This document shows, in pieces, positions 11,264 to 23,307 of a stretch of 64,000 bases of DNA. The position numbers were made by a program, and so were the translations under genes. Position 1 is the stretch's first letter. Every line of letters starts with the position of its first letter. Source of the stretch: Mesotoga sp. BH458_6_3_2_1 (GTDB lineage Bacteria; Thermotogota; Thermotogae; Petrotogales; Kosmotogaceae); assembly GCF_003664995.1 (NCBI RefSeq), contig NZ_JFHL01000021.1, forward strand, positions 188,880-252,879, given 5' to 3'. Under the pieces are notes generated by a model. The model was not told the origin of the DNA. It did not search any database and worked only from the letters and a program-made list of their open reading frames with translations.

Positions 11264-11313
11264 TTGTTTTCTTAAAGGAATGTACTATAATCTAGGTACA
11301 TATGTTCTGAACA
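11264..11313 (+). promoter_or_regulatory. Promoter and candidate operator of the catabolic operon
   Basis: TTGTTT (11264-11269) and TATAAT (11286-11291) are 16 bases apart. The -10 is framed by TGTAC and GTACA, and just downstream lies a perfect 5-1-5 palindrome, TGTTC-T-GAACA (11303-11313). A SorC-family regulator is encoded in the operon, and such regulators usually act on palindromes at their own operon promoter, so this is the natural operator candidate. Binding is inference. Confidence 0.55.
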
Positions 11314-11331
11314 AATGATAGGAGAGATGTC

Positions 11332-12069
11332 ATGACGGGAAAACTGATTAGAATGAACCGGATACTCAGAGAAGACGGAAAGACGGTGATCGTTGCTATG
11401 GATCACGGGCAGTTCCAGGGTCCGATAGAAGGCATCAAGGATGTCAGGAGGACATTAAGCAACATAGTCGCTGGCCGGCCCGATGCAATGATTCTAAATC
11501 CGGGCGTAATCGAAAAGAACGGAGATTTGCTAGGAGGAAAGGTTTCGATTCTATGTAGAATAACGGGGGCCTCTACTAACTACTCCACAAAGTTTGACTA
11601 CCACAGAATCACTACTTCCGTCGAACATGCGTTGTCAATAGGAGCTGACGGTGTGGTTGTTATGGGATTCATGGGTGGAGACGGTGAAAACGCGTCGCTT
11701 GAAATTATCGGAAAAGTGGCAGAAGAATGCAGCAAGCTAGGAATGCCCTTGATTGCAGAAATGCTTCCTCAGGCCATGGATCACTTTACTGATCCGGAGT
11801 ATATTGCACTGGGAACGAGAGTAGCGTATGAGCTGGGTGCCGATATTGTAAAAGTCTATTATACTGGCTTTGAGTCATTTACGAAGGTTCTGGAATCAGT
11901 ACCTCTGCCCGTCGTAATTGCCGGGGGACCGAAGGGAAAGGATGCCTTCGAAATGGCAATAGAGGCTCTGGAGCTCGGCGCAAAGGGGGTTGCTTACGGC
12001 AGAAATGTATTTCAAGCCGATGACCAGACTGAATATGTCGAAAAGCTTCTGAAAACTGTTCACGGCTAG
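11332..12069 (+). CDS. Class I aldolase, DeoC/LacD/LsrF family
   Basis: 245 residues, an (alpha/beta)8 aldolase resembling archaeal-type class I fructose-bisphosphate aldolase and LsrF. AMDHG near residue 22 is the conserved N-terminal motif, and the Lys in DIVKVYYTG (about residue 180) is the expected Schiff-base lysine. A C-terminal phosphate-binding loop is seen in GGPKGK and GVAYGRN. It would cleave a phosphorylated sugar or keto-acid. It is the first gene of a 12-gene operon with a sugar kinase and a dehydrogenase, so it probably performs the final carbon-carbon cleavage. GGAGAG precedes the ATG. Confidence 0.85.
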   Translation: MTGKLIRMNRILREDGKTVIVAMDHGQFQGPIEGIKDVRRTLSNIVAGRPDAMILNPGVIEKNGDLLGGKVSILCRITGASTNYSTKFDYHRITTSVEHALSIGADGVVVMGFMGGDGENASLEIIGKVAEECSKLGMPLIAEMLPQAMDHFTDPEYIALGTRVAYELGADIVKVYYTGFESFTKVLESVPLPVVIAGGPKGKDAFEMAIEALELGAKGVAYGRNVFQADDQTEYVEKLLKTVHG

Positions 12070-12089
12070 TCTGAAAAGAGGGGGCGTTT

Positions 12090-13691
12090 ATGAAGAAAGC
12101 ACTCTTGCTCGTTTTCTTATTTCTTTTTCTCGGCGCTGTTTTCGGAATTGAGGGCCATGTGTTTGTTGATCTGAACTCAAACGGGATACTCGACTCGGAA
12201 GATCAGACCCTTCAGGGTTGCCTTATTTCAAACGGAGTTGAGATAGTCTCTTCAGACAGTGAGGGGGTCTATAGTATTCCCGGTTCAGATGGTTATGTAT
12301 TCTTGATCAAACCTGACGGATATTTGTGCAGCGAATGGTATGTTAAGGGGCTTGAGAATCACGATTTCTTGCTGATGCCATCTGTGGAGAATGGTGTCTT
12401 TGCCGTTGTAAACGATATTCACTACGCGGATGACCCCGACCTCTTCTATGAATCTCTAGGTGACAGAGAGATGATTGACAGTCCAGATGAATACATGACC
12501 AAGCTTGTTTCGATTCTCGAGACAGTCAAGCCCGATTTCATCGTATGCAACGGAGACATGGGAGCAAGCATCAAAGATATCGACGACGAAGTTGCAACCA
12601 GATGGGCTACAAAGGTTAAAGACTATCTAACCATCTCGAATATCCCTGTATATTACTCCGTTGGAAATCACGAGACAAACAAGAAGAAGGCCGATCCGTA
12701 CGACATTTTTCACAACGTCTATGGGCCCGCGTATTACTCTTTCAACAGCTTTGGAACACACTACATAGTTCTTAACACTCACAACATCGTCGAAGGCAGT
12801 TTCGTCTACGAAGTCGATTCTGAGCAGCTTGAATGGTTGAAGAAGGACATTGAGCTAGTTTCCAATAATACAAGTATTGTGATTTTCTCACATGAACCGA
12901 TATTTAGTCTAGCCAAGACCGATAACTACTACGATCTGATGCAGATTTTTGCTGATGATTGTTCATACCACATTACCGGTCACAAGCACACGATGATTGA
13001 GTACTTCGATGCTCCATTTGTGGAGCTAACCTGTGGTGCTGTTTCTGGAGCATGGTGGGAAGGCCCATCTCCAACTGGTGATGAATATGGGTTCACACTT
13101 TTTGAGATGAAGAGAAGCGATTTGAATTACTGTTTCGTAACTCTTGCAGATGATAATTCCGGCTGGTTCGACATGAGAAGAGAGGCCCCCTATTCCGGAG
13201 TCGAGTACGTCAGATTCTGCACGTTTCCTTCAACAGAAGATATCGTAGTACTTCTCAATGACCGTATCGTGGAATGCGATGTTTTGAAGAAAGATATGAG
13301 ATTCTGGAGCGAATACTACTTCAATGTCAATCTTTCTTCCAGTGACGATGGGCTGAATGAGATAGTTGTTCGCTCTGGAGATATAGAGTTCAGAAAGAAG
13401 CTCTTCGTTAGAAGCGCCCCGGTAGACATCAAATCTATGAAAACCAATCCAGAATACTTCGAGGGATCACTTGTGCTTGTTTCGAATTGTTCCAATACCG
13501 GTCAGTGGGGTAAAACCTACACATTCAACGATGGTAGTGATACTTTCATGGTTCAAATAACCAATCTGGACGTTCCCTTCACCATTTCAAAAGACGATAG
13601 ATACTCTCTGTACGGAATATTCAGAAACAGCGAGAGAGTGGTTGATCCAATCAAGCTGTTGGTGGCCGAGGGAATTGTTCAGGAAGAATAA
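12090..13691 (+). CDS. Exported calcineurin-like metallophosphoesterase
   Basis: 533 residues with a signal peptide ending near FGIEG. An N-terminal Ig/SdrD-B-like segment carries DLNSNGILDSED, an EF-hand-like calcium loop. The metallophosphoesterase core shows NDIHYAD, CNGDMG, YYSVGNHE, FSHEP and TGHKHT, giving the dimetal ligands D, H, D, N, H, H. A C-terminal beta-domain follows. The family cleaves phosphomonoesters or diesters, often nucleotides or glycerophosphodiesters. Outside the cytoplasm in a sugar-uptake operon, it may release the transported compound from a phosphorylated precursor; that role is inferred. It begins 20 bases after the aldolase. Confidence 0.85.
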   Translation: MKKALLLVFLFLFLGAVFGIEGHVFVDLNSNGILDSEDQTLQGCLISNGVEIVSSDSEGVYSIPGSDGYVFLIKPDGYLCSEWYVKGLENHDFLLMPSVENGVFAVVNDIHYADDPDLFYESLGDREMIDSPDEYMTKLVSILETVKPDFIVCNGDMGASIKDIDDEVATRWATKVKDYLTISNIPVYYSVGNHETNKKKADPYDIFHNVYGPAYYSFNSFGTHYIVLNTHNIVEGSFVYEVDSEQLEWLKKDIELVSNNTSIVIFSHEPIFSLAKTDNYYDLMQIFADDCSYHITGHKHTMIEYFDAPFVELTCGAVSGAWWEGPSPTGDEYGFTLFEMKRSDLNYCFVTLADDNSGWFDMRREAPYSGVEYVRFCTFPSTEDIVVLLNDRIVECDVLKKDMRFWSEYYFNVNLSSSDDGLNEIVVRSGDIEFRKKLFVRSAPVDIKSMKTNPEYFEGSLVLVSNCSNTGQWGKTYTFNDGSDTFMVQITNLDVPFTISKDDRYSLYGIFRNSERVVDPIKLLVAEGIVQEE

Positions 13692-13706
13692 GGAGGGGAA
13701 ATACGT

Positions 13707-14204
13707 ATGAAGAAAGCCTTACTGGTTGTTCTTGCGGCAATGCTTCTCATTTCTGCTGCGGTAATCGCAGATCCTGTAATCAAAATCAGTGGCGTGATCG
13801 CATTGAGAAATGAGGAAGGTGTCTGGCAACTCACGCTGGATGAGTTCAAAGAACTGCCTCAAACCGAGTTCTTTGTAACCGATCCGTGGATGGGAGACAA
13901 GACATATGTTGGAGTTACTCTCGCCGATCTTTTGAAGTTCGTGGGAGTTCCTTCCGGAACAAAGAATGTTGTTCTGGTATGCTCTGATGAAAAGGAATTT
14001 GCAGTCTCTTACGAGGACGCATTGAAGTATCCGGTAATGCTGACTCACTCAACCAGATCGGGCGAAAACCTTAGGGCTCTTCCTGCGAGCCAGGGTGGCC
14101 CCATAAAGCTTGCATATCCGATCAACGACTTCCCGGAGATCACCGACAAGTATCCGTCTGACAACTGGGCATGGTACGTAATCGAAGTTAGGGTTGAGAT
14201 GTGA
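13707..14204 (+). CDS. Exported protein with a molybdopterin-binding (sulfite-oxidase) fold
   Basis: 165 residues with a signal peptide (cleavage near VIADP). The rest resembles the PF00174 oxidoreductase fold: ISGVIALRNEEGVWQLTLDEFKELP, VGVTLADLLKFVGVP, and the C-terminal signature ASQGGPIKLAYP. Stand-alone short members often lack the molybdenum-ligating cysteine; the only candidate here is Cys in VVLVCSD, so cofactor binding is uncertain. It sits between the exported phosphoesterase and the dehydrogenase and may be a ligand-binding periplasmic protein. GGAGGGG precedes the ATG. Confidence 0.7.
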   Translation: MKKALLVVLAAMLLISAAVIADPVIKISGVIALRNEEGVWQLTLDEFKELPQTEFFVTDPWMGDKTYVGVTLADLLKFVGVPSGTKNVVLVCSDEKEFAVSYEDALKYPVMLTHSTRSGENLRALPASQGGPIKLAYPINDFPEITDKYPSDNWAWYVIEVRVEM

Positions 14205-14209
14205 TTTCG

Positions 14210-14235
14210 TAATGGGGGAGGCAACTCCCCCATTA
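14210..14235 (+). terminator. Perfect 11-bp hairpin with GCAA loop
   Basis: TAATGGGGGAG at 14210-14220 pairs exactly with CTCCCCCATTA at 14225-14235 around a GCAA tetraloop of the stable GNRA class. No T-tract follows and the next gene starts 22 bases later, so it is more likely a processing or stability element, or a partial attenuator, than a full terminator. It separates the exported-protein part of the operon from the dehydrogenase and transporter. Confidence 0.75.
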
Positions 14236-14257
14236 TCTTCGATAAGAGGTGGTTCAT

Positions 14258-15268
14258 TTGAAGGCAGCAATCTACAAGGGCATCGGGAAGATCGAAATCA
14301 ATGATATTAGCAAGCCCACTATCCAGGCAGATGAAGGTCTCGTGAAGATAGGTATGGTTGGCGTCTGTGGCACAGACATAAAGACATTCAACAAAGGGCA
14401 TCACATGTTCAAACCGCCATGCATTCTAGGGCATGAGTTCACCGGAAAAGTTGTTGAAAAAGGAGCATCGGTAAACTACGATTTCGGCGATACTAGCTAC
14501 GTGATTGCTCCCTACATAGAGTGCGGCAAATGTGAAATGTGTCAGAAAGGAGTTCCCGAGCTCTGCTCAAAGAAACATTGGGTCGAAGGAGCATTTACCG
14601 AGTATGTGAAAGTGCCCTCAGAGATCCTGAAAAGGGCAACTCTTAAGATCCCGAATCATGTCCCCGAGAGTACCGCAACCCTGACAGAACCGCTGGCCTG
14701 TGCAATTCATGGCATAGACAAAGCCAGGATAATTCCCGAAGACAGAGTCCTGGTTGTTGGAAGCGGTCCTATGGGCTTGCTCCTTGGAAACGCTCTGAAA
14801 AACATGAAATGTGAGACATACATTTCCGATATCGATAAGAACAGGCTATCTATGGCTGAGAACTGTGGCCTCAAAACGATAGACTTCAGTGAGTCTGGTT
14901 TCGAAAGCTTTAAAAACAGTGATCTTCGCTTCGATTCAATCATCCTTGCAAATGATAGAAAGGAACTTGTCAATCCGCTTCTACCTTTCGTGCATCCAGG
15001 CGGAACATTTGAGTTGTTTGGTGGAATGTCGAGAGACACGGTCCTGGAGATAGATCCTTACTTTATTCACTATAAAGAGATAGACCTCGTCGGCACTTTT
15101 GGTTTCTCCGAGAAGGATTTCAAGAAGGCCTTCGGCTTCATCACCAGTGATCCAGATTCTTTCTCTAAACTGATTTCCAAAGTATGGGACCTCGAGAATA
15201 TCGTAGAAGCTTTCAAAGACGCTACAGATAAGACCAAAGCCAAGATTGTCGTAAAGGTCTCAAGCTAG
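14258..15268 (+). CDS. Zinc-dependent alcohol/polyol dehydrogenase (MDR family)
   Basis: About 336 residues. Catalytic zinc ligands are visible in VGVCGTD, GHEF and TEPLAC. The structural zinc site is the four-cysteine lobe ECGKCEMCQKGVPELC. The Rossmann motif VVGSGPMGLL starts near residue 165, and the Asp in ISDIDKNR favours NAD. It resembles sorbitol, threonine and glucose dehydrogenases that oxidise a secondary hydroxyl; here it would oxidise a sugar or sugar alcohol before aldol cleavage. TTG at 14258 is the likely start, with AGAGGTGG ending five bases upstream; the in-frame GTG at 14249 lies within the SD. Confidence 0.87.
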   Translation: MKAAIYKGIGKIEINDISKPTIQADEGLVKIGMVGVCGTDIKTFNKGHHMFKPPCILGHEFTGKVVEKGASVNYDFGDTSYVIAPYIECGKCEMCQKGVPELCSKKHWVEGAFTEYVKVPSEILKRATLKIPNHVPESTATLTEPLACAIHGIDKARIIPEDRVLVVGSGPMGLLLGNALKNMKCETYISDIDKNRLSMAENCGLKTIDFSESGFESFKNSDLRFDSIILANDRKELVNPLLPFVHPGGTFELFGGMSRDTVLEIDPYFIHYKEIDLVGTFGFSEKDFKKAFGFITSDPDSFSKLISKVWDLENIVEAFKDATDKTKAKIVVKVSS

Positions 15269-15279
15269 GAGGGATTTAA

Positions 15280-16533
15280 TTGAAGAAGGTATTTGTCATT
15301 TCATTGCTTCTAACAATTACCGCGGCGATCTTCGCCATTACCCTGGACTTCTACTGTCTTGCCTGGCAACCTGCAGCCGTTGACAAGATATACGATCTGG
15401 TCGATATATGGAACATGGACAATCCAGATATTCAGGTGAACATTATCTGGGGCACCTGGGAATCTTCAGACCAGTATCTGCTGACAAGTTTTCAAGGCGG
15501 AAACGCCCCGGATGTCTTTCATACTGACGCCGAGAAATTCCGAGAATATGGAATGATGGGATATGCAGCCCCCCTTAACAGTTACGTGACTGCCGATATG
15601 ATTAGTGACATTCCTGCACATATATTCGAAGACTGCTACGATTTTACCGGAAATTTATACGGGATCCCTTGGTGCCAGGAAACGCAGGTGATCTTCTACA
15701 ACAAGGACATATTCGAAGAAAATGGAATTAGATTACCTCTCGACAGAATGATTTCGTGGGAAGAGCTGCTTGACATTGCTCAAAGAGTTACAAAGAGAGA
15801 TGATAACGGAAATGTAATAACCTGGGGAATCCTTGCTCCTCTTATGGAGAGGTTTCACTGGACCTTGATCGCTCAGAAAGATGGAACGATACTTACAAAG
15901 GACAGCAATCATAAGTGGAAGGTTGAGATCAATGAGGGGGCAAGAGAGGCAATTGAGTTTTACCTTTCACTAATAACTGAACACCAGGTGATGCCTAGAG
16001 ATGTCATAAGCATTGACTACACTTCTCTAATGCAGGGATTCATAAACGGGAAATACGCAATGGTTACCTTTGGCTGCTGGAACAGGCGCTTCATGCTTCA
16101 GAATAAAGGCTTCAACTGGGGTATGCTTCTTGTCAAGAACGAAGACAACAGGATCAATGCATCTGACCCCCAGGCTTTTGGTATCTCAAAGCTCTCCAAA
16201 CATAAGGATGAAGCCTATGCATTTATAGAATTCATGACAAATACCGAGAACTCAGCAGAGATAAGCTTCAGCGACTATCTCTTCCCAGTAAGGGAATCGG
16301 CAATTGGCGACCCGCGATTTGACTCGGCTGAGAACGAATGGGACATAGCGAAATCCTGGCTCCAATACTCAGACAACGTTAAACCCGGCATGCCTGGATT
16401 CTATACTTTCGAATGGAAACTGTTTGTTCCCAATCTGGAAAAGGTGATTCTTGGGAGTATGCGTCTAGACGAAGCTCTTAAGGATACAGTTGTTGAGGGA
16501 AACAAAATGCTGAAGAAGCTCGGGCTTCAATGA
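15280..16533 (+). CDS. Sugar ABC transporter substrate-binding protein
   Basis: 417 residues, family 1 (MalE/UgpB-like) extracellular binding protein. A signal peptide of about 20 residues is followed by LDFYCLAWQPAAVDKIYDL. The characteristic PDVFHTDAEKF and GIPW motifs occur near residues 85 and 125. There is no lipobox, so it is probably released to the periplasm. It starts at TTG 15280 behind GGAGGG. Two cognate permeases follow after a structured gap. Ligand unknown; from the operon a sugar, polyol or glycoside is expected. Confidence 0.9.
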   Translation: MKKVFVISLLLTITAAIFAITLDFYCLAWQPAAVDKIYDLVDIWNMDNPDIQVNIIWGTWESSDQYLLTSFQGGNAPDVFHTDAEKFREYGMMGYAAPLNSYVTADMISDIPAHIFEDCYDFTGNLYGIPWCQETQVIFYNKDIFEENGIRLPLDRMISWEELLDIAQRVTKRDDNGNVITWGILAPLMERFHWTLIAQKDGTILTKDSNHKWKVEINEGAREAIEFYLSLITEHQVMPRDVISIDYTSLMQGFINGKYAMVTFGCWNRRFMLQNKGFNWGMLLVKNEDNRINASDPQAFGISKLSKHKDEAYAFIEFMTNTENSAEISFSDYLFPVRESAIGDPRFDSAENEWDIAKSWLQYSDNVKPGMPGFYTFEWKLFVPNLEKVILGSMRLDEALKDTVVEGNKMLKKLGLQ

Positions 16534-16554
16534 TTTGCTGCAACTTGTAGGAGA

Positions 16555-16706
16555 ATGAAAGGAAATACCCTGAAGAAGCTCTTTGCAACGTGGAAAGGGT
16601 TATTTTAGATGTTCCTTTCATGATTCTCGAATCAATTAGAGTGTATTCGCCAGTATGAGGTGATACTGGCAATCAATGAGATATATATTACCGATTCACT
16701 CGGTAA
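16555..16706 (+). other. Three consecutive hairpins between binding-protein and permease genes
   Basis: First, ATGAAAGGAA (16555-16564) pairs with TTCCTTTCAT (16612-16621), with weaker pairing inside. Second, GCCAGTAT (16649-16656) pairs with ATACTGGC (16663-16670) around the loop GAGGTG, itself an SD-like sequence. Third, TTACCGA (16688-16694) pairs with TCGGTAA (16700-16706). No T-tracts follow. Such intercistronic structures typically protect the upstream binding-protein mRNA and reduce permease expression. The SD-like loop could be a decoy or regulated ribosome site; that is speculation. Confidence 0.65.
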
Positions 16707-16764
16707 CTGTCGGGAGTGATGACAAATCAGAAAGAGCGAAACGGCGAAAGCACTGCCATATATA

Positions 16765-17592
16765 TTGCCAGTACTGATAGTAGTGGCGCTAATAAGCGTA
16801 TATCCATTTGTCAACGGGATATACAACAGCTTCTTCTCCGATGCTGTCTTCGGAGGAGGAAAGTACTACTCCGGCCTTGAGAATTTCAGAGACCTGATGT
16901 CTGACAATCTTTTCTGGACCGGGCTCAAGAATAACCTTATATGGTCTGCTGCTTGTGTCGGATTTGAGCTTGTTCTGGGCATGTTGATAGCTCTACTGCT
17001 CAATCTGCCATACATAAGGCTAAGAGGTCTATACAGAGCACTGATCCTTCTGCCCTGGGCGACAACCCCCGTTGTAGCGGCACTGGTATGGAGATACATC
17101 TTCGGAGTTATGGGACCGCTTAATTCCTTTCTGAATACAGTGGGCTTTGCAAATCCTCCTAATTGGCTGGTAACTCCAGGCTATTCTCTCTTCGCCTGCA
17201 TAGTCGCAAACATTTGGATAGGCCTCCCGTTCGTTATTGTGACTCTTCTGGCTGGATTGCAATCCCTACCTTCTGATGTGTACGAAGCTGCCGAGATAGA
17301 TGGTGCCGGAGTATTCAAGAGGTTCTTCCATCTCACTCTGCCTTTAATGAAAAGTCTGATTCTTATCCTCGTTACACTAAACACGATCTGGACTTTCAAC
17401 ATGTTCGACATAGTCTACTCAATGACCAATGGCGGACCGGGGAACTCTTCAATGCTACTATCACTGTATTCTTATCAAAATGCTTTCGCATACTTCCAGC
17501 AGGGATACGCCTCTGCAATCGGCGTCATATGTTTGCTTATACTACTTCTACCTGTTGCCTTCTATATAAGGGAGGTAAGAAATGAGGCCTAA
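16765..17592 (+). CDS. Sugar ABC transporter permease 1 (MalF type), uncertain N-terminus
   Basis: At least 275 residues, six predicted membrane segments and the EAA loop (YEAAEIDGAGVFKRFFHLTLP) that contacts the ATPase. The given start is a TTG with no SD. A better N-terminus would be ATG 16719: it reads MTNQKER and then needs removal of one A in the AAA run at 16739-16741 to continue as TAKALPYILP into this frame. So there is either a one-base insertion or sequencing error, or a rare start such as ATC 16726 behind GGGAGTGAT. It overlaps the next permease by 11 bases. No ATPase gene is in the operon. Confidence 0.85.
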   Translation: MPVLIVVALISVYPFVNGIYNSFFSDAVFGGGKYYSGLENFRDLMSDNLFWTGLKNNLIWSAACVGFELVLGMLIALLLNLPYIRLRGLYRALILLPWATTPVVAALVWRYIFGVMGPLNSFLNTVGFANPPNWLVTPGYSLFACIVANIWIGLPFVIVTLLAGLQSLPSDVYEAAEIDGAGVFKRFFHLTLPLMKSLILILVTLNTIWTFNMFDIVYSMTNGGPGNSSMLLSLYSYQNAFAYFQQGYASAIGVICLLILLLPVAFYIREVRNEA

Positions 17593-18409
17593 GAGAAGCG
17601 TAGTAATAACTATGAACATCGTGGCGTTTTTGGTGGTTTTGCTGATCCTCTCTCCTCTCTTAATGCTAATACTAAATTCTTTCAGAGAAACTAATGACAT
17701 TTATCAGAATCCTTTGAAGCTTCCGGAGAAATTCTATCTGGGAAACTACTCGAAGATCTTCCAGGACACCAGTTTCGGCAGGAACTTCGCAAACAGCATG
17801 ACGGTTACCCTCGTTACCGTCATGCTATGCATAATTATCACTACACTGGCAGGCTATGCAATGTCCAGATTCAAGTTCAAGGGCAAGAATCCTTTGATAC
17901 TATGGCTTCTGGCTTCCCAGGCTTTCCCGGGAATTCTAATGATAATCGGTCTCTTTTCTCTCCTTAACCGGTACTCCCTTCAGAACAACCCCCTGGGCCT
18001 GATTATTCTATACACTACCTTTACTATCCCGTTCTGCAGCTGGTTACTTAAGGGATACTTCGATGAGATTCCCCAGGCACTTGAAGAAGCTGCAATGATT
18101 GATGGTTGTAATCGATTTCAGGCAATGCGGAAGATAATCGTGCCAATGGCAGTTCCGGGGATAGTCGCTGTCGGAACGTTTGCGTTTCTTCTCTCTTGGA
18201 ATGAGTTCTTTTTTGCGCTCGTAATCATGAGAGAGAATGCAAATTATACCCTTCCCGTTTTCCTTTCGAGGTTCGTTGGAACCGGAGGTGCCGTAGAGTG
18301 GGGCGCTCTATCGGCCGGCGCCCTAATCACTGCTCTTCCTCCTATCCTTCTGTTTCTCCTATCACAGAAGTATCTAATCGGAGGGCTTACGAGAGGTGCG
18401 ATCAAATGA
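17582..18409 (+). CDS. Sugar ABC transporter permease 2 (MalG type)
   Basis: 275 residues with six membrane segments. The EAA motif is LEEAAMIDGCNRFQAMRKIIVP. MalG-type features include the first-helix SPLLMLILNSF and the C-terminal QKYLIGGLTRGAIK. It forms the channel heterodimer with the preceding permease. Since no ATP-binding protein is encoded here, a shared MsmK-like ATPase from elsewhere in the genome is presumably used, as common for this class. Its stop overlaps the next start (ATGA), so translation is coupled. Confidence 0.93.
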   Translation: MRPKRSVVITMNIVAFLVVLLILSPLLMLILNSFRETNDIYQNPLKLPEKFYLGNYSKIFQDTSFGRNFANSMTVTLVTVMLCIIITTLAGYAMSRFKFKGKNPLILWLLASQAFPGILMIIGLFSLLNRYSLQNNPLGLIILYTTFTIPFCSWLLKGYFDEIPQALEEAAMIDGCNRFQAMRKIIVPMAVPGIVAVGTFAFLLSWNEFFFALVIMRENANYTLPVFLSRFVGTGGAVEWGALSAGALITALPPILLFLLSQKYLIGGLTRGAIK

Positions 18410-19239
18410 GAATCGCCGTCATCGGAGCCGCCTCTATCGACAGGTATGTGATTCTCGATTCATTTCCAGAAAGAGATTCTATGGTATTTGCAAGAAGCAC
18501 ACATGATTTCATCGGAGGCTCAGGAGCGAACATAGCTTTGAATCTCTCGCATTGCGCTGAAACGGACTTCTACTTCGGAACGGGAAATGATCTATCTTCG
18601 AAGTGGATTCTAGAGAAGCTCTCTTTGCCAAGCATGAATCTTAGTTACGTCGTGGAAAATGGATCTGGCGCCGAGACTTTAATAATGCTGGATTCACAAG
18701 GAGAGCGAAGAATCATATCCCTTGGAGGCCATGCTCTCTTTCGCGGTGTAATCGACGAAAAGAGGTACAGTGCGATTTGCGTGGCGGACAGTTTCAAAGA
18801 AGTCGCGCTCGATGCATTCCGAAAGACAGCTGAATCTCTGAAAGTCTATGTACCGGGTGGATGTGGTCTGTATTTTGGAACCGATACCGTTGTTGAGGTA
18901 GCTTGTTTATCGGATTTCACTATTTTGTCGGAAGGAGAAGCAGAGAACCTTCAGAGAAGGATCAGTGAGATCTCTTCGAATATTATAATAACCAGAGGAT
19001 CCGCTGCAACGATCTGGATAGATAGAAACAAGAATAGCCGCTCCTTCGAGGTTGAAGGAATCGCTGAAAAAATCTTGGATACTACGGGAGCCGGTGATGC
19101 TTTCGCCGCAGGATTTATTGAGAAGTTTACGAAGTGCGGTGATCCAGTCCAGAGTATCAATTACGGCCACAAGAATGCGGCAAAAGCGGTTTCTGCAATT
19201 GGACCCAACCTCGTAGAAGGGAGGAAAGATTTAAGATGA
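18406..19239 (+). CDS. PfkB family sugar kinase
   Basis: About 277 residues of the ribokinase/PfkB fold. The N-terminal substrate motif is GGSGANIALNLS near residue 40, and the C-terminal signature DTTGAGDAFAAGF holds the catalytic Asp and anion hole. It transfers the ATP gamma-phosphate to a sugar or nucleoside hydroxyl. ATG 18406 is chosen because it overlaps the permease stop as ATGA; the longer open frame starting at 18298 lies inside the permease gene. It would phosphorylate the imported compound before dehydrogenase and aldolase steps. Confidence 0.88.
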   Translation: MRIAVIGAASIDRYVILDSFPERDSMVFARSTHDFIGGSGANIALNLSHCAETDFYFGTGNDLSSKWILEKLSLPSMNLSYVVENGSGAETLIMLDSQGERRIISLGGHALFRGVIDEKRYSAICVADSFKEVALDAFRKTAESLKVYVPGGCGLYFGTDTVVEVACLSDFTILSEGEAENLQRRISEISSNIIITRGSAATIWIDRNKNSRSFEVEGIAEKILDTTGAGDAFAAGFIEKFTKCGDPVQSINYGHKNAAKAVSAIGPNLVEGRKDLR

Positions 19240-20183
19240 AGGGGCTTATGGCCAATAGAGACACAATGATGAAAGTTTGCAAACTCTACTATATCGAGGA
19301 CAAGACACAGAGCGAAATCGCCAGATTGGTTGGAATATCCAGACCCCAAGTCAGCAGGCTGCTCACAAAAGCCAAAAACGAGGGAGTCGTTAGGATAGAG
19401 ATTGATTCGGGAAAAGTGGAAAATCTCGAAGAGATTTCGATAGAAATGAAAGAGAGATTCGGACTGAAGAACGTCATCGTTGCGGACGAAGCATCGGATG
19501 GAGGAACCATCACTTCAATTGCGATGTCTGCAGCGAAATTCCTCCCCGATTACGTGAAGAATGGACAGCTTGTGGGGATCTCCTGGGGTCGAACTCTGTA
19601 TGAGACAGTTGAAAGAGTCGTATTCAATAGTGAGCTTCCAAACACAACATTCATACCCCTGATCGGTGGCGTCGGCCAGTTGCGTCACGAGTATCAGATG
19701 AATTCAATTGTTGAGAAGATTGCGAATTCCTTTCACAGTAACCGTTACTACCTTTTCGCTCCAGCCTTCATAGAAAACGCGAAGACTCTAAACATGATGC
19801 TTGAAGACAGTTCGATAAGATTCATGTCGGAGATGTGGAAGAGGTTGGATCTGGCCATTGTCGGGATAGGGGAACCCATATCTCTGTCCAATGCCTTCAA
19901 GAACATCTACGATAAGGAGTTCCTTGCTAACCTTATGAAACACGAGGCGGTTGGCGACATAGCAGCGAGATTCTTCAACGTGGACGGAGCACCTTGCGTT
20001 TCCGGAAATGAGAATATCCTCGGGATATCTCTTGATCAGCTGAAGGAAGTGCCCGAGGTTATCGGGATTGCAGGTGGCAAAGAGAAAGCTCAGGCAATTC
20101 ATGCGTCAATAAAGGCCGGATATATCAATTCAATCGTAACGGATAGGAGTACTGCTCTTCAAATACTCCGAATGCAGAGGTAA
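19236..20183 (+). CDS. SorC/DeoR-type sugar-binding transcriptional regulator
   Basis: 315 residues. A helix-turn-helix near residues 25-50 reads TQSEIARLVGISRPQVSRLL. The C-terminal sugar-phosphate sensing domain of the SorC family (GISWGRTLYE, PLIGGVGQ, GIGEP, ISLDQLKEVPEVIGIAGG) follows. Such proteins are released from operators by phosphorylated sugars. It overlaps the kinase by ATGA. Encoded inside the operon, it should control the promoter near 11290, where a TGTTC-T-GAACA palindrome is found. Confidence 0.9.
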   Translation: MKGLMANRDTMMKVCKLYYIEDKTQSEIARLVGISRPQVSRLLTKAKNEGVVRIEIDSGKVENLEEISIEMKERFGLKNVIVADEASDGGTITSIAMSAAKFLPDYVKNGQLVGISWGRTLYETVERVVFNSELPNTTFIPLIGGVGQLRHEYQMNSIVEKIANSFHSNRYYLFAPAFIENAKTLNMMLEDSSIRFMSEMWKRLDLAIVGIGEPISLSNAFKNIYDKEFLANLMKHEAVGDIAARFFNVDGAPCVSGNENILGISLDQLKEVPEVIGIAGGKEKAQAIHASIKAGYINSIVTDRSTALQILRMQR

Positions 20184-20184
20184 T

Positions 20185-21156
20185 ATGAGAATCGGATTAG
20201 TCTATAATCCTAACTCTGGTAAGCGAGAGAAAGATCTTGCTCTCATGAAGGCTCTTGCCAAGAAGCTTGAGGGATTGCACCTATTCTGTACGAAATCTAC
20301 CCATCTTCACCTGAAAGAGTACTTCAATCTGGAAGTAATCGGATCGGGGACGACCCACAACGATTACAGAGACACCATAAACGCGGGTAACGCCCTTTCG
20401 GAAATGAATCTGGTGATATCGATCGGAGGGGATGGAACCGCATCCGATGTTGTCGCCGGTATGCGGTTGACTGGGAGGCTTGCGCCAGTTGCGGGTGTCG
20501 CTTTGGGAACAGCCAATTGCGGACCACTTATTGCTATCAGATCGGTTGCTGACATAGTAGACTTTGACTTCCTTAATATAAGGCCAAAATGGGTAATCGG
20601 ACTAGACGTATTCGAAGAAGAATACATAAGTTCGGCATTCAACGATGTGGTCATTTCCGAAACTTTGATTTCGACAGTAGAAGGAAAGAGCTTAACAATC
20701 GACGCTTCGAACTTCTTCTACAAGAATGAGAGAACACCAAGAGAACCTGTGTCAATCTCTTCAGAAACAAGCAGATTGGAGATCAACGGAGAGGAAGTCT
20801 CGCCTCATTTTCGTACATCACAAATCATTATCTCTCCATTTCCAAAAGACACAAAGGGATTGTTCGCCTATAAAGCAGTGAGCGGCCTCCTTTGCTGGCT
20901 GCCTTACTCGAGCTGTGACTCTGCAATGATTGTCTCTTCAAGACCGATAATAACTATGGTTGAACCGGACGAGACAGTCTCTGCGGATATCAAGCAGTTC
21001 ATTCTAACTAACAGTGATACAGTAAGATTATCTGGCTTCGAAGCTTTCTGCGTGATCGATGGAAATCCAAGGGTAGATCTTTCAGCATCCGAGGGAATCG
21101 AAGTGAAAACAAATGGAAGGGCAGGACTTGGCGTGAAAAGACGTGATGAAGAATGA
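20185..21156 (+). CDS. NAD-kinase-fold protein (AcoX-like)
   Basis: 323 residues. The start MRIGLVYNPNSGK and the central ISIGGDGTASDVV are the NNE/GGDGT signature of the NAD kinase/diacylglycerol kinase superfamily. Closest in form to the AcoX or ATP-NAD kinase-like proteins found in catabolic operons, whose biochemical role is poorly defined. It could phosphorylate NAD or a pathway metabolite. It starts one base after the regulator and overlaps the next gene by ATGA, so it belongs firmly to this operon. Confidence 0.8.
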   Translation: MRIGLVYNPNSGKREKDLALMKALAKKLEGLHLFCTKSTHLHLKEYFNLEVIGSGTTHNDYRDTINAGNALSEMNLVISIGGDGTASDVVAGMRLTGRLAPVAGVALGTANCGPLIAIRSVADIVDFDFLNIRPKWVIGLDVFEEEYISSAFNDVVISETLISTVEGKSLTIDASNFFYKNERTPREPVSISSETSRLEINGEEVSPHFRTSQIIISPFPKDTKGLFAYKAVSGLLCWLPYSSCDSAMIVSSRPIITMVEPDETVSADIKQFILTNSDTVRLSGFEAFCVIDGNPRVDLSASEGIEVKTNGRAGLGVKRRDEE

Positions 21157-22133
21157 ACAGGATTTTCAGGGCACTTGAAGCATTCACCGTTGGCGATGCG
21201 ATGGGAATGGTAACGGAATTCATGACCCGCCGGCAAATCTCTGCCAGGTTCGAGTTCGTAAGTGATTTGCTAGAACCGGAACATTCGCTTATCCATAAGA
21301 ATCTAGCAAGAGGTCAGATAACTGACGACACAGAGCAGGTGCTTTACTTAATAAAGCTCTACAATGAGAAAAGAAACTTCTCACAAGAGACGGTCAAGGA
21401 AGCTCTTTGCAGGTGGGTCGACGAGTGTGACCCTGTTAGGAAGGGTTACATAGGGCCAAGCACTAAGAGAGCTATCGAAGCCTTCAAGAACAAAGAGGAA
21501 TTCGAGAGTCTGGGCACTACCAGTGGGGCTCCAATGAGAGTGCTTGCTCCAGTCTTATGTAGTCTCAACAAAAGTGAAAAGCATCTAGTCGAAGTAATAA
21601 GAGAGTGTACAGTTCCTACTCATAACACGAATCTCGCTCTCGAAGCTTCCCTCTCAGTCGGATTCGCCTACTACTATGCAGCAAAGGGGCAGGGTGTTAA
21701 TCAGATTGTAGAAGCAGCCATTAGAGGCTCAAGATTAGCTGGAGAAAGCTCTTGCGCAGAATTCGTAGGACCTTCTGCCGGTGAAAGACTTTCCGTGATC
21801 GGAGATCAAATCGGCGGTGAATTGCCTGGCGATTTTCTTGACAGAATCTACTATCTGTTTGGCACAACTATGGAGGCGGTAGACGTAGCAGTTGCAGCGA
21901 TTGCCATCGGGCTTTTCTGCAGAGATGATGTGTGGCAAGCAATAAGGATGGGTGCATCAATCGGCGGAGACACCGATACCATTGCAGCAATAGCAGGCGC
22001 ACTGTCTTCTCTCCAAGGCGAAACTAACAATATCCCTCATTTCATAACTCAGAAAGTATCGAAAACAAACGAAAATCTTGATCTGCAGAAGTATGTAAGA
22101 TACGTAGAGGAAACGAGTGATATAGATGATTAA
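21153..22133 (+). CDS. ADP-ribosylglycohydrolase family protein
   Basis: 326 residues, all-helical ARH/DraG fold. The two metal-binding motifs are visible: GQITDDTEQVLYL near residue 55 and GASIGGDTDTIAAIAG near residue 275, supplying the threonine and aspartates for two magnesium ions. Characterised relatives remove ADP-ribose from proteins or cleave other alpha-N/O-ribosyl bonds. In this sugar operon there is no ADP-ribosyltransferase, so hydrolysis of a small ribosyl or glycosyl metabolite is more likely than protein de-modification. This is inference. It overlaps both neighbours. Confidence 0.85.
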   Translation: MNRIFRALEAFTVGDAMGMVTEFMTRRQISARFEFVSDLLEPEHSLIHKNLARGQITDDTEQVLYLIKLYNEKRNFSQETVKEALCRWVDECDPVRKGYIGPSTKRAIEAFKNKEEFESLGTTSGAPMRVLAPVLCSLNKSEKHLVEVIRECTVPTHNTNLALEASLSVGFAYYYAAKGQGVNQIVEAAIRGSRLAGESSCAEFVGPSAGERLSVIGDQIGGELPGDFLDRIYYLFGTTMEAVDVAVAAIAIGLFCRDDVWQAIRMGASIGGDTDTIAAIAGALSSLQGETNNIPHFITQKVSKTNENLDLQKYVRYVEETSDIDD

Positions 22134-23307
22134 ACTATTGTCCGGAAGTGCCTCTGTGGGGGTTATCTACGGGATCTTCAATTTCGTTCTAATACCGTAT
22201 CTCAATGGCAAGTTTCACTCAACTGCTCTGGCTGGAAACCTGGTTTCAGCAGGAATGATTATAACGATCTTCACCGGAATGCTAATTGGCTATCTAGGCG
22301 ACCGAAACAGGAAATACCTGTTCTTCATTAAAGGTCTCTTCATCATCGCAATTGCCAGCATGTTTATGCTTAGCACAGGCAATGAAATCTTGTTGGGAAT
22401 TGCTGCCGTCGTTTTCACCATGTCAATATTCAGTCTTCTTACTCCATACTCTGCCCTTGTCAGCAACGTGAGTAAGCCTGGCAGAAAGGACAGAAACTAT
22501 GGATTCATGATGGGTGTTATGAATATAGCGACCTTCCTCTGTTCCCTGTTCATTGGAGTCGCCCTTTCAAGAAGCGAAGAGACCGCATTTGTGATTTTCT
22601 CGATTGCTGCAGCTGTCCTAGTTGTTCCGATTTTCTTCTTTCGTTCTGGTTCTCAAGTAGATGATGCCGCTGTAGGTATTAGGGAAGAAGACTTGAGATT
22701 CAAAATTGACAGAAAAATAGTCTTTGTAATGATCTCTCAGTTTGGCTTATGGTTTTCCATGGGTGGGATACTTCCTTACTTGACCTCTTTCATCAGCAGC
22801 GATATAGGTGTGTCTCTTGGCACTGCCTCGTCGATAATGGGAATATCAACTCTTGTGAGTGGCGTGACTTCTCTTTTGACTGGCACTCTGAGCAAAATGC
22901 TCGGACAGAGAAGGCTGCACATTACGGCGCTTTCTATCCTAGCCGGCGTTTTCTTGTTAGTGAGTATCTTCTACTCTGGATTCCTGGATCTTGGCCCATT
23001 TCTTATGCTGATCGTCTTGATTTTCTTCAGCTTTGCTTTGGGAATTGTTCTCGCCCTCAACGTGACAATAGTCTCAGATACGGTTTCCCTTGCAAATCAG
23101 GGAAAGATCTTCGGCCTAAATAACATAGTAATGGTGCTCTCTCAATCGCTTGCCCTAAGTCTTATAGGTTCTTTGATAGCCCTGAGTGGCTATAATCTGG
23201 CATTTGTTTTTGTTGCAGGAGGCTTCGCGACCGCAATACTATTCTTCGTAATAAGCACGCTTAATTATCAAAGACCACTAAACGAGCAAAAGTCAGGTAA
23301 GACGTAG
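22126..23307 (+). CDS. Major facilitator superfamily transporter
   Basis: 393 residues, about 12 membrane helices. The loop between helices 2 and 3 (GYLGDRNRKYLFF) is the MFS motif A variant. Halves are separated by a charged central loop near residues 180-200. It overlaps the ADP-ribosylglycohydrolase gene by eight bases and ends the operon. It could be an alternative importer or an exporter of a pathway product. No terminator hairpin was found after it. Confidence 0.85.
   Translation: MIKLLSGSASVGVIYGIFNFVLIPYLNGKFHSTALAGNLVSAGMIITIFTGMLIGYLGDRNRKYLFFIKGLFIIAIASMFMLSTGNEILLGIAAVVFTMSIFSLLTPYSALVSNVSKPGRKDRNYGFMMGVMNIATFLCSLFIGVALSRSEETAFVIFSIAAAVLVVPIFFFRSGSQVDDAAVGIREEDLRFKIDRKIVFVMISQFGLWFSMGGILPYLTSFISSDIGVSLGTASSIMGISTLVSGVTSLLTGTLSKMLGQRRLHITALSILAGVFLLVSIFYSGFLDLGPFLMLIVLIFFSFALGIVLALNVTIVSDTVSLANQGKIFGLNNIVMVLSQSLALSLIGSLIALSGYNLAFVFVAGGFATAILFFVISTLNYQRPLNEQKSGKT

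Follow-up and report, generated by a model that had tools for sequence, protein, structure and literature searches.

A conserved twelve-gene operon of Mesotoga places an ADP-ribosylglycohydrolase-family protein with a sugar importer, kinases and an aldolase and probably serves the catabolism of a sugar-bearing small molecule

In pseudouridine catabolism, the genes psuT-psuG-psuK supply a transporter, a glycosidase and a PfkB-family kinase, and pseudouridine is phosphorylated by PsuK and then cleaved by PsuG. PsuG is not known to belong to the ADP-ribosylglycohydrolase (ARH) family, whose members are commonly interpreted as enzymes that undo protein ADP-ribosylation. An ARH gene does accompany a PfkB kinase and a transporter in yegTUV of Escherichia coli (GgaR regulon). 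PMC10819704 records this module as having no known function and reports ADP-glucose as the effector of its repressor. Here we describe a larger operon built around the same core, found at positions 11332-23307 of a 64-kb stretch of the genome of Mesotoga sp. BH458_6_3_2_1 (phylum Thermotogota; the whole stretch is hereafter the window). We propose that it serves to break down a small molecule that carries a sugar, most likely a riboside or some other furanoside, and that its ARH acts in metabolism; we give this reading a probability of roughly 0.6.

The operon is filled by twelve open reading frames, all on the forward strand, whose products were assigned to families by Pfam and NCBIfam profile searches. 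The proteins named in the first-pass annotation, which had been made without database searches, were all found in place and in one direction, and the family searches concur with their names; its count of twelve genes also stands, although it had left two of them unnamed, a molybdopterin-domain protein (13707-14204) and a transporter of the major facilitator superfamily (MFS; 22126-23307). The intergenic gaps are, in gene order, 20, 15, 44, 11, 192, -11, -4, -4, +1, -4 and -8 bases. The last seven genes thus overlap or almost touch, as had been claimed for the operon at large, but the preceding ones are spaced by 11-192 bases. The genes are as follows, ABC standing for ATP-binding cassette, NAD for nicotinamide adenine dinucleotide and DAG for diacylglycerol.

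11332-12069, + strand: class I aldolase of the DeoC/LacD family, DhnA/LsrF-like (PF01791, 138.4 bits, cut-off 23.8)
12090-13691, + strand: exported calcineurin-like phosphoesterase (PF00149, 50.2 bits)
13707-14204, + strand: small exported protein with a molybdopterin-oxidoreductase-like domain (PF00174, 28.0 bits, cut-off 24)
14249-15268, + strand: zinc-dependent dehydrogenase of the idonate/threonine/sorbitol type (PF08240, PF16912, PF00107)
15280-16533, + strand: sugar-type ABC solute-binding protein (PF01547, 123 bits)
16726-17592, + strand: ABC permease 1, UgpA/MalF type (putative AUC start at 16726; first canonical codon TTG at 16765)
17582-18409, + strand: ABC permease 2, MalG type (from the profile search)
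18406-19239, + strand: PfkB-family sugar kinase (PF00294, 86.2 bits, cut-off 25.8)
19236-20183, + strand: SorC/DeoR-type regulator (NF053881 (DeoR), 223.8 bits against a cut-off of 420; LsrR, 144.5)
20185-21156, + strand: AcoX-like protein of NAD-kinase/DAG-kinase fold with a GGDGT motif (PF00781, 34.6 bits; PF01513, 30.6 bits)
21153-22133, + strand: ARH (PF03747, 143.6 bits, cut-off 26.2)
22126-23307, + strand: MFS transporter, the last gene (PF07690, 106.7 bits)

The twelve products were mapped onto the stretches around AcoX relatives in a set of 103 Thermotogota genomes (G numbers; L numbers denote loci). The gene order of the window, which we call type A, recurs in six more genomes from three families: three of the same genus (G005, G002 and G004), one of the same order (G024) and two of the same class (G058 and G072). 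Two of these six copies are incomplete: the contig of G002 ends within the MFS gene, and the stretch taken from G072 ends within the aldolase. A 4.9-kb contig of G009 carries only the last three genes of type A. Across the type A loci, the ARH proteins are between 89% and 42% identical to the window copy, and the arrangement is far beyond chance.

A second layout, type B, was found in nine stretches (G008, G003, G053, G007, G013, G045, G012, G039 and G051). It comprises the aldolase, SorC, the dehydrogenase, the permeases, the binding protein, a barrel protein, AcoX, ARH and mostly also the MFS transporter. The barrel protein (PF01261, xylose-isomerase-like) replaces PfkB but stands at another position, and an extra Ldh_2 dehydrogenase is present in G053, G045 and G012. 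Contig ends leave AcoX, ARH and MFS alone in G013 and cut off the aldolase in G051; in G003, the contig breaks between AcoX and ARH, and ARH and MFS open another contig. No MFS gene was recognised in the type B loci of G039 and G051, and only a short piece in G053; it is the last gene in type A and in most type B loci. Type C (G036 and G033, with Pfam annotation run on the G033 copy) combines a GntR/UTRA regulator, a ribokinase-like PfkB protein, an RbsA-like ATPase, a permease, a sugar-binding protein and ARH. The phosphoesterase and molybdopterin-domain genes are confined to type A: neither was found in type B, nor the phosphoesterase in type C. An importer, a kinase and ARH are common to all layouts, with the dehydrogenase, aldolase and AcoX added in types A and B, and the simplest account of this pattern would be that a glycoside or riboside is taken up, phosphorylated and hydrolysed, then oxidised and cleaved by the aldolase.

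The association between AcoX and ARH extends across the phylum. AcoX had 22 matches (E<=2.4e-11), and ARH adjoins it or sits one gene on in 16 of these 22 loci. ARH likewise had 22 matches (E<=2.3e-62), with AcoX beside 16, the G003 pair split between contigs and no AcoX alongside in G048, G036, G033, G042 and G047. Among the ten genomes of the genus, including that of the window, five have type A (one of them, G009, on the strength of three genes only), three have type B, two have neither (G001 and G006) and none has both, as if one type replaced the other.

A midpoint-rooted tree of 30 ARH proteins, with several open forks, showed the Thermotogota set (types A, B and C and one lone copy) and a set of YegU and plasmid proteins as two halves of one group, outside which the other ARH paralogue of the genome falls. 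The tree interleaves the layouts: L042 and L047, of type B, join L037 and L039, of type A, with support of 94/91, and in the aldolase tree, too, these two type B loci fall on the type A side. Parts have therefore been exchanged between the two layouts, in keeping with a single kind of task for both.

Outside the phylum, a tblastn search with ARH retrieved 53 plasmid records under 18 genus names. We examined 12 of them, one per genus for 12 of the 18 genera, together with a stretch of the E. coli K-12 chromosome; Escherichia, Salmonella, Listeria, Klebsiella, Yersinia and Limosilactobacillus plasmids were left aside. In all but one of these 13 loci, a PfkB gene is no more than 3 kb away from ARH (12 of 13), as judged with a profile built from an alignment that contained five of them; eight of the records are themselves annotated with a kinase described as PfkB, carbohydrate or sugar kinase, and four are unannotated there. 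ABC importers are found near ARH in Rhizobium, Paracoccus and Mesorhizobium, cytosine permeases in Plesiomonas, Paraburkholderia and Lactiplantibacillus, a nucleoside permease in Pantoea and YegT in E. coli. The AcoX profile had no match in the 13 stretches. In E. coli K-12 (NC_000913, 2177512-2182061; L099), the class I aldolase gene fbaB adjoins yegTUV divergently; its product is weakly similar to the window aldolase (32 bits), an echo of the aldolase-ARH-PfkB company seen in Thermotogota.

The ARH of the window has complete TDDT and GGDTDT motifs, which we take to be its metal-site motifs, and residues D58, D59, T60, D273, T274, D275 and T276 are invariant in 19 relatives. Membership in PF03747 and these intact motifs would also suit a regulatory, DraG-like enzyme that removes ADP-ribose from an operon enzyme or the importer and so switches it, in what would otherwise be an ordinary sugar operon; according to PMC9503650, the characterised PF03747 members act on ADP-ribosylated protein or on O-acetyl-ADP-ribose and set ADP-ribose free. 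We nevertheless consider such a switch quite unlikely. The protein scores 72 bits against the DraG model TIGR02662 (cut-off 337.05) and 44 bits against the Tri1 ADP-ribosylarginine hydrolase model NF041672 (cut-off 490). No ADP-ribosyltransferase is found among the twelve products, as the first-pass annotation had noted, and in the annotated stretches outside the phylum, where ARH recurs with PfkB and transporters, none is annotated either (four more records carry no annotation). A search of the genome for DraT gave no match, and the control search was likewise empty. The low TIGR02662 score and the gene context led us to reject the DraG-type switch as first choice; this ARH is probably a metabolic glycohydrolase rather than a remover of protein ADP-ribose. 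The general idea of the first-pass annotation, that a metabolite with a glycosyl or ribosyl link is broken down and that ARH cleaves it intracellularly, is the best supported reading, given the PfkB and transporter genes around ARH, type C and the distance to DraG. Its chemistry was not supported, and the substrate, the order of steps and the enzyme roles are matters on which we can only infer.

The name AcoX for the 20185-21156 product is our assumption, as the family searches did not return it. The protein meets the Pfam cut-off for NAD kinase (25.5 bits for PF01513), scores higher with DAGK_cat (PF00781) and does not reach the NAD kinase model NF002521 (19.3 bits against 309). Its AlphaFold2 model (predicted local distance difference test score 89.3, predicted template modelling score 0.88) matches NAD kinase 7qvs with Z 17.2 and a root-mean-square deviation of 3.4 over 243 residues, and DAG kinase 4wer with Z 17.2 and a deviation of 3.7 over 234 residues, at 16-17% identity to these structures. 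The kinase fold predicted earlier is thus confirmed by this confident model, although DAG kinase and NAD kinase are equally close to it, and the protein may act on a pathway intermediate, as had been proposed. In a search for relatives outside Thermotogota, the scan of genome contigs yielded only one contig, itself from Mesotoga (4.9 kb, gene 89% identical), and plasmids gave nothing apart from distant NAD kinases in Variovorax.

The aldolase points to a phosphorylated intermediate. Residues K174, D24, G198-G199 and G223-R224-N225 are invariant in 15 relatives, and its best PDB match is MJ0400, followed by LsrF. K174 is presumably the Schiff-base lysine, and we take the conserved loops, which align with those of MJ0400 and LsrF, to bind phosphate; the substrate is therefore probably a phosphorylated keto-sugar. 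The protein does not reach the 2-amino-3,7-dideoxy-heptulosonate synthase models (TIGR01949, 201.9 against 299.45 bits; NF005556, 224.7 against 241), and its relatives on plasmids (275 records) are all below 60% identity. The PfkB kinase keeps its catalytic GAGD across 13 relatives and does not reach the ribokinase model TIGR02152 (77.2 bits against 299.65).

In the exported phosphoesterase, D109/H111, D156, N193/H194, H268 and H298/H300, presumably metal-ligand positions, are invariant in seven sequences. A gene for it is present in every type A locus that extends that far. It might open external nucleotide cofactors such as NAD, ADP-ribose or ADP-glucose, so that the resulting nucleoside or sugar phosphate would be imported and finished by ARH and the kinase; the effector reported for the yegTUV repressor, ADP-glucose, would fit such salvage (PMC10819704). 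We regard this as unlikely: types B and C showed no phosphoesterase, the PDB relatives of the solute-binding protein are mostly sugar binders, and the phosphoesterase has no sequence match in the PDB, its modest structural model giving only weak matches (Lmo2642, template modelling score 0.42 by target) that reveal no specificity. The neighbouring 13707-14204 protein is kept in type A loci and shows no conserved Cys in the alignment; it is perhaps a binding protein that has lost its cofactor.

The same genome contains a further locus of related content, L098 (G000:C26:50000-69000), with SorC, a zinc-dependent dehydrogenase, two DhnA-type aldolases, a ribose-type importer, an FGGY kinase and PfkB; neither ARH nor AcoX was recognised there. 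One of its aldolases passes the LsrF cut-off (308.7 against 297 bits), which brings the locus nearer to lsr than the window operon, and from its genes it reads as a system of Lsr type to which a dehydrogenase has been added. That this second set of SorC, dehydrogenase and aldolase keeps company with a ribose-type importer and an FGGY kinase speaks for the catabolic reading of the window operon. Identity of the window operon with the LsrF/autoinducer-2 (AI-2) operon was rejected, as its aldolase is below the cut-off of the LsrF thiolase model (NF006081, 154 bits against 297). That a comparable set exists without ARH and AcoX would suit a polyol or free-sugar pathway in which the dehydrogenase, kinase and aldolase, able by themselves to form a tagatose-type route, do the work and ARH merely repairs metabolites by removing sugars from damaged side products. 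We judge this very unlikely, given that ARH stands beside AcoX in most AcoX loci and is also found with just PfkB and a transporter, where no other pathway needs repair.

For the catabolism of a sugar-bearing compound, which we favour, the firm ground is that these genes occur together and are conserved as one unit, that the catalytic motifs are intact and that the AcoX-like protein has a kinase fold. In the scheme we propose, the exported phosphoesterase would strip phosphate off the compound outside the membrane, and the ABC importer, whose ATPase is not among the twelve genes, would carry it inside. PfkB and/or the AcoX-like kinase would phosphorylate it and ARH would cut the glycosidic bond, in either order, leaving a sugar phosphate and an aglycone. 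The dehydrogenase would yield a keto-sugar phosphate, which the aldolase would split into C2-C3 units that feed glycolysis, and the MFS protein would export the aglycone or import a second substrate. SorC would sense a sugar phosphate and act at a palindrome before the first gene. A more specific version, modelled on PsuK and PsuG, is possible but doubtful: the kinase would phosphorylate the ribose of an imported riboside, and ARH, shaped to accommodate the phosphorylated ribose within ADP-ribose, would then cut the glycosidic bond and give ribose 5-phosphate and the aglycone. In type B, which has no PfkB, the AcoX-like protein would be a small-sugar kinase of NAD-kinase/DAG-kinase fold. If true, this version would provide a function for E. 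coli yegTUV too.

Several observations weigh against the catabolic interpretation. No operon product (ten products and the two permeases) reaches an NCBIfam equivalog cut-off, and no relative of this ARH has a known substrate. Because type B lacks PfkB, the PfkB-ARH pair is not universal; Enterococcus raffinosus, the exception among the 13 loci outside the phylum, has ARH without PfkB and a phosphotransferase system transporter instead. Among the 19 AcoX loci taken with wider surroundings, two, L044 and L038 (a 4.6-kb contig), have no ARH and G003 is split by a contig end; three further loci, L021, L022 and L031, have none within the short flanks covered. The SorC proteins, dehydrogenases and aldolases of type B (L042 and L047 aside for the aldolases) are about as distant from those of the window as the L098 paralogues are, and strict orthology between types A and B is therefore not established. 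An operator shared by the SorC proteins of both types is suggestive by eye only: TGAACA/TGCACA elements of like appearance lie upstream of several type B aldolase genes, and the shuffle statistics are mixed, the pattern passing at the 5% level in one of six type A and six of seven type B upstream regions.

Two elements precede the first gene.

11286-11291, + strand: -10-like box TATAAT, identical across four Mesotoga genomes in the upstream-region alignment
11299-11317, + strand: candidate palindromic operator, downstream of that box and ahead of the aldolase gene

The box may be the promoter element of the operon. The palindrome, CATATGTTCTGAACAAATG, lies downstream of it, ends 14 bases upstream of the first gene and is identical in the same four genomes. 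It occurs at a single place in the 3.23-Mb genome when up to three mismatches are allowed, against a chance expectation of 0.04 matches in the window, and the operon's own SorC probably acts there.

The start of permease 1 is unusual. In four Mesotoga genomes, no ATG, GTG or TTG spans its conserved N-terminus (window 16712-16770); directly after an in-frame TGA (or TGA-TAA) come ATC/ATA and then IRKSETAKALPYILPV, and the ATC/ATA codon sits 9 bases past GGGAG. Changes in the IRKSETAKALPYILPV region are synonymous only (2-9 codon changes per genome pair, 0 nonsynonymous), and in the frame of the ATG at 16719 all 1-8 changes are nonsynonymous. This pattern suggests that translation starts at a conserved AUC/AUA codon, or else that it starts at the ATG at 16719 and then shifts frame. 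Strong hairpins are predicted in the gap between the binding protein and permease 1 (16534-16726; folding energy -59.1 kcal/mol, z -3.6 relative to shuffled sequences) and may form part of the mRNA that controls the level of binding protein over permease.

The operon is real and conserved, is built of known enzyme families and is not described in the literature searched, which is short of most subscription journals and returned nothing on the larger gene set; the first-pass annotation had likewise known of no pathway with exactly these genes, although the ARH-PfkB-transporter core was already on record as yegTUV. PMC3750489, on T. maritima regulons, mentions none of Mesotoga, Kosmotoga, SorC and ADP-ribosyl, and PMC5702140, on bacterial sugar loci, none of COG1397, ADP-ribosyl, DhnA and DeoC. 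That an ARH is coupled in a conserved operon with a sugar importer, kinases, a dehydrogenase and an aldolase indicates that a widespread branch of ARH proteins, E. coli YegU included, is probably metabolic, and the question of what yegTUV does thereby becomes a plain enzyme assay. The operon also suggests that a protein with the NAD-kinase/DAG-kinase fold serves as a kinase in the degradation of sugars.

Compared with known systems, the AcoX-like protein shares the two-domain fold and GGDG motif of the NAD kinase and DAG kinase superfamily and sits between the two families. The psuT-psuG-psuK set is smaller than that of Mesotoga. The lsr operon has a SorC-type regulator and an LsrF-like aldolase, as here, but the Mesotoga importer is not of the ribose type and there is no FGGY kinase. 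Plasmid operons of Rhizobium, Paracoccus, Mesorhizobium, Pantoea, Plesiomonas and Lactiplantibacillus place ARH (24-28% identical to that of the window in the four aligned) near PfkB and an importer, as in Mesotoga, but without the aldolase, dehydrogenase and AcoX-like gene alongside. The operon yegTUV likewise joins ARH to a PfkB kinase, whose gene comes next after that for ARH, and a transporter; YegU is 26% identical to the window ARH (103 bits), whereas the two kinases are weakly similar (28 bits) and YegT has no BLAST similarity to the MFS protein (E 0.37). It consists of three genes under a GntR regulator and lacks the dehydrogenase, the AcoX-like gene and the exported phosphoesterase, all of which are present among the twelve genes, with SorC, of the Mesotoga operon.

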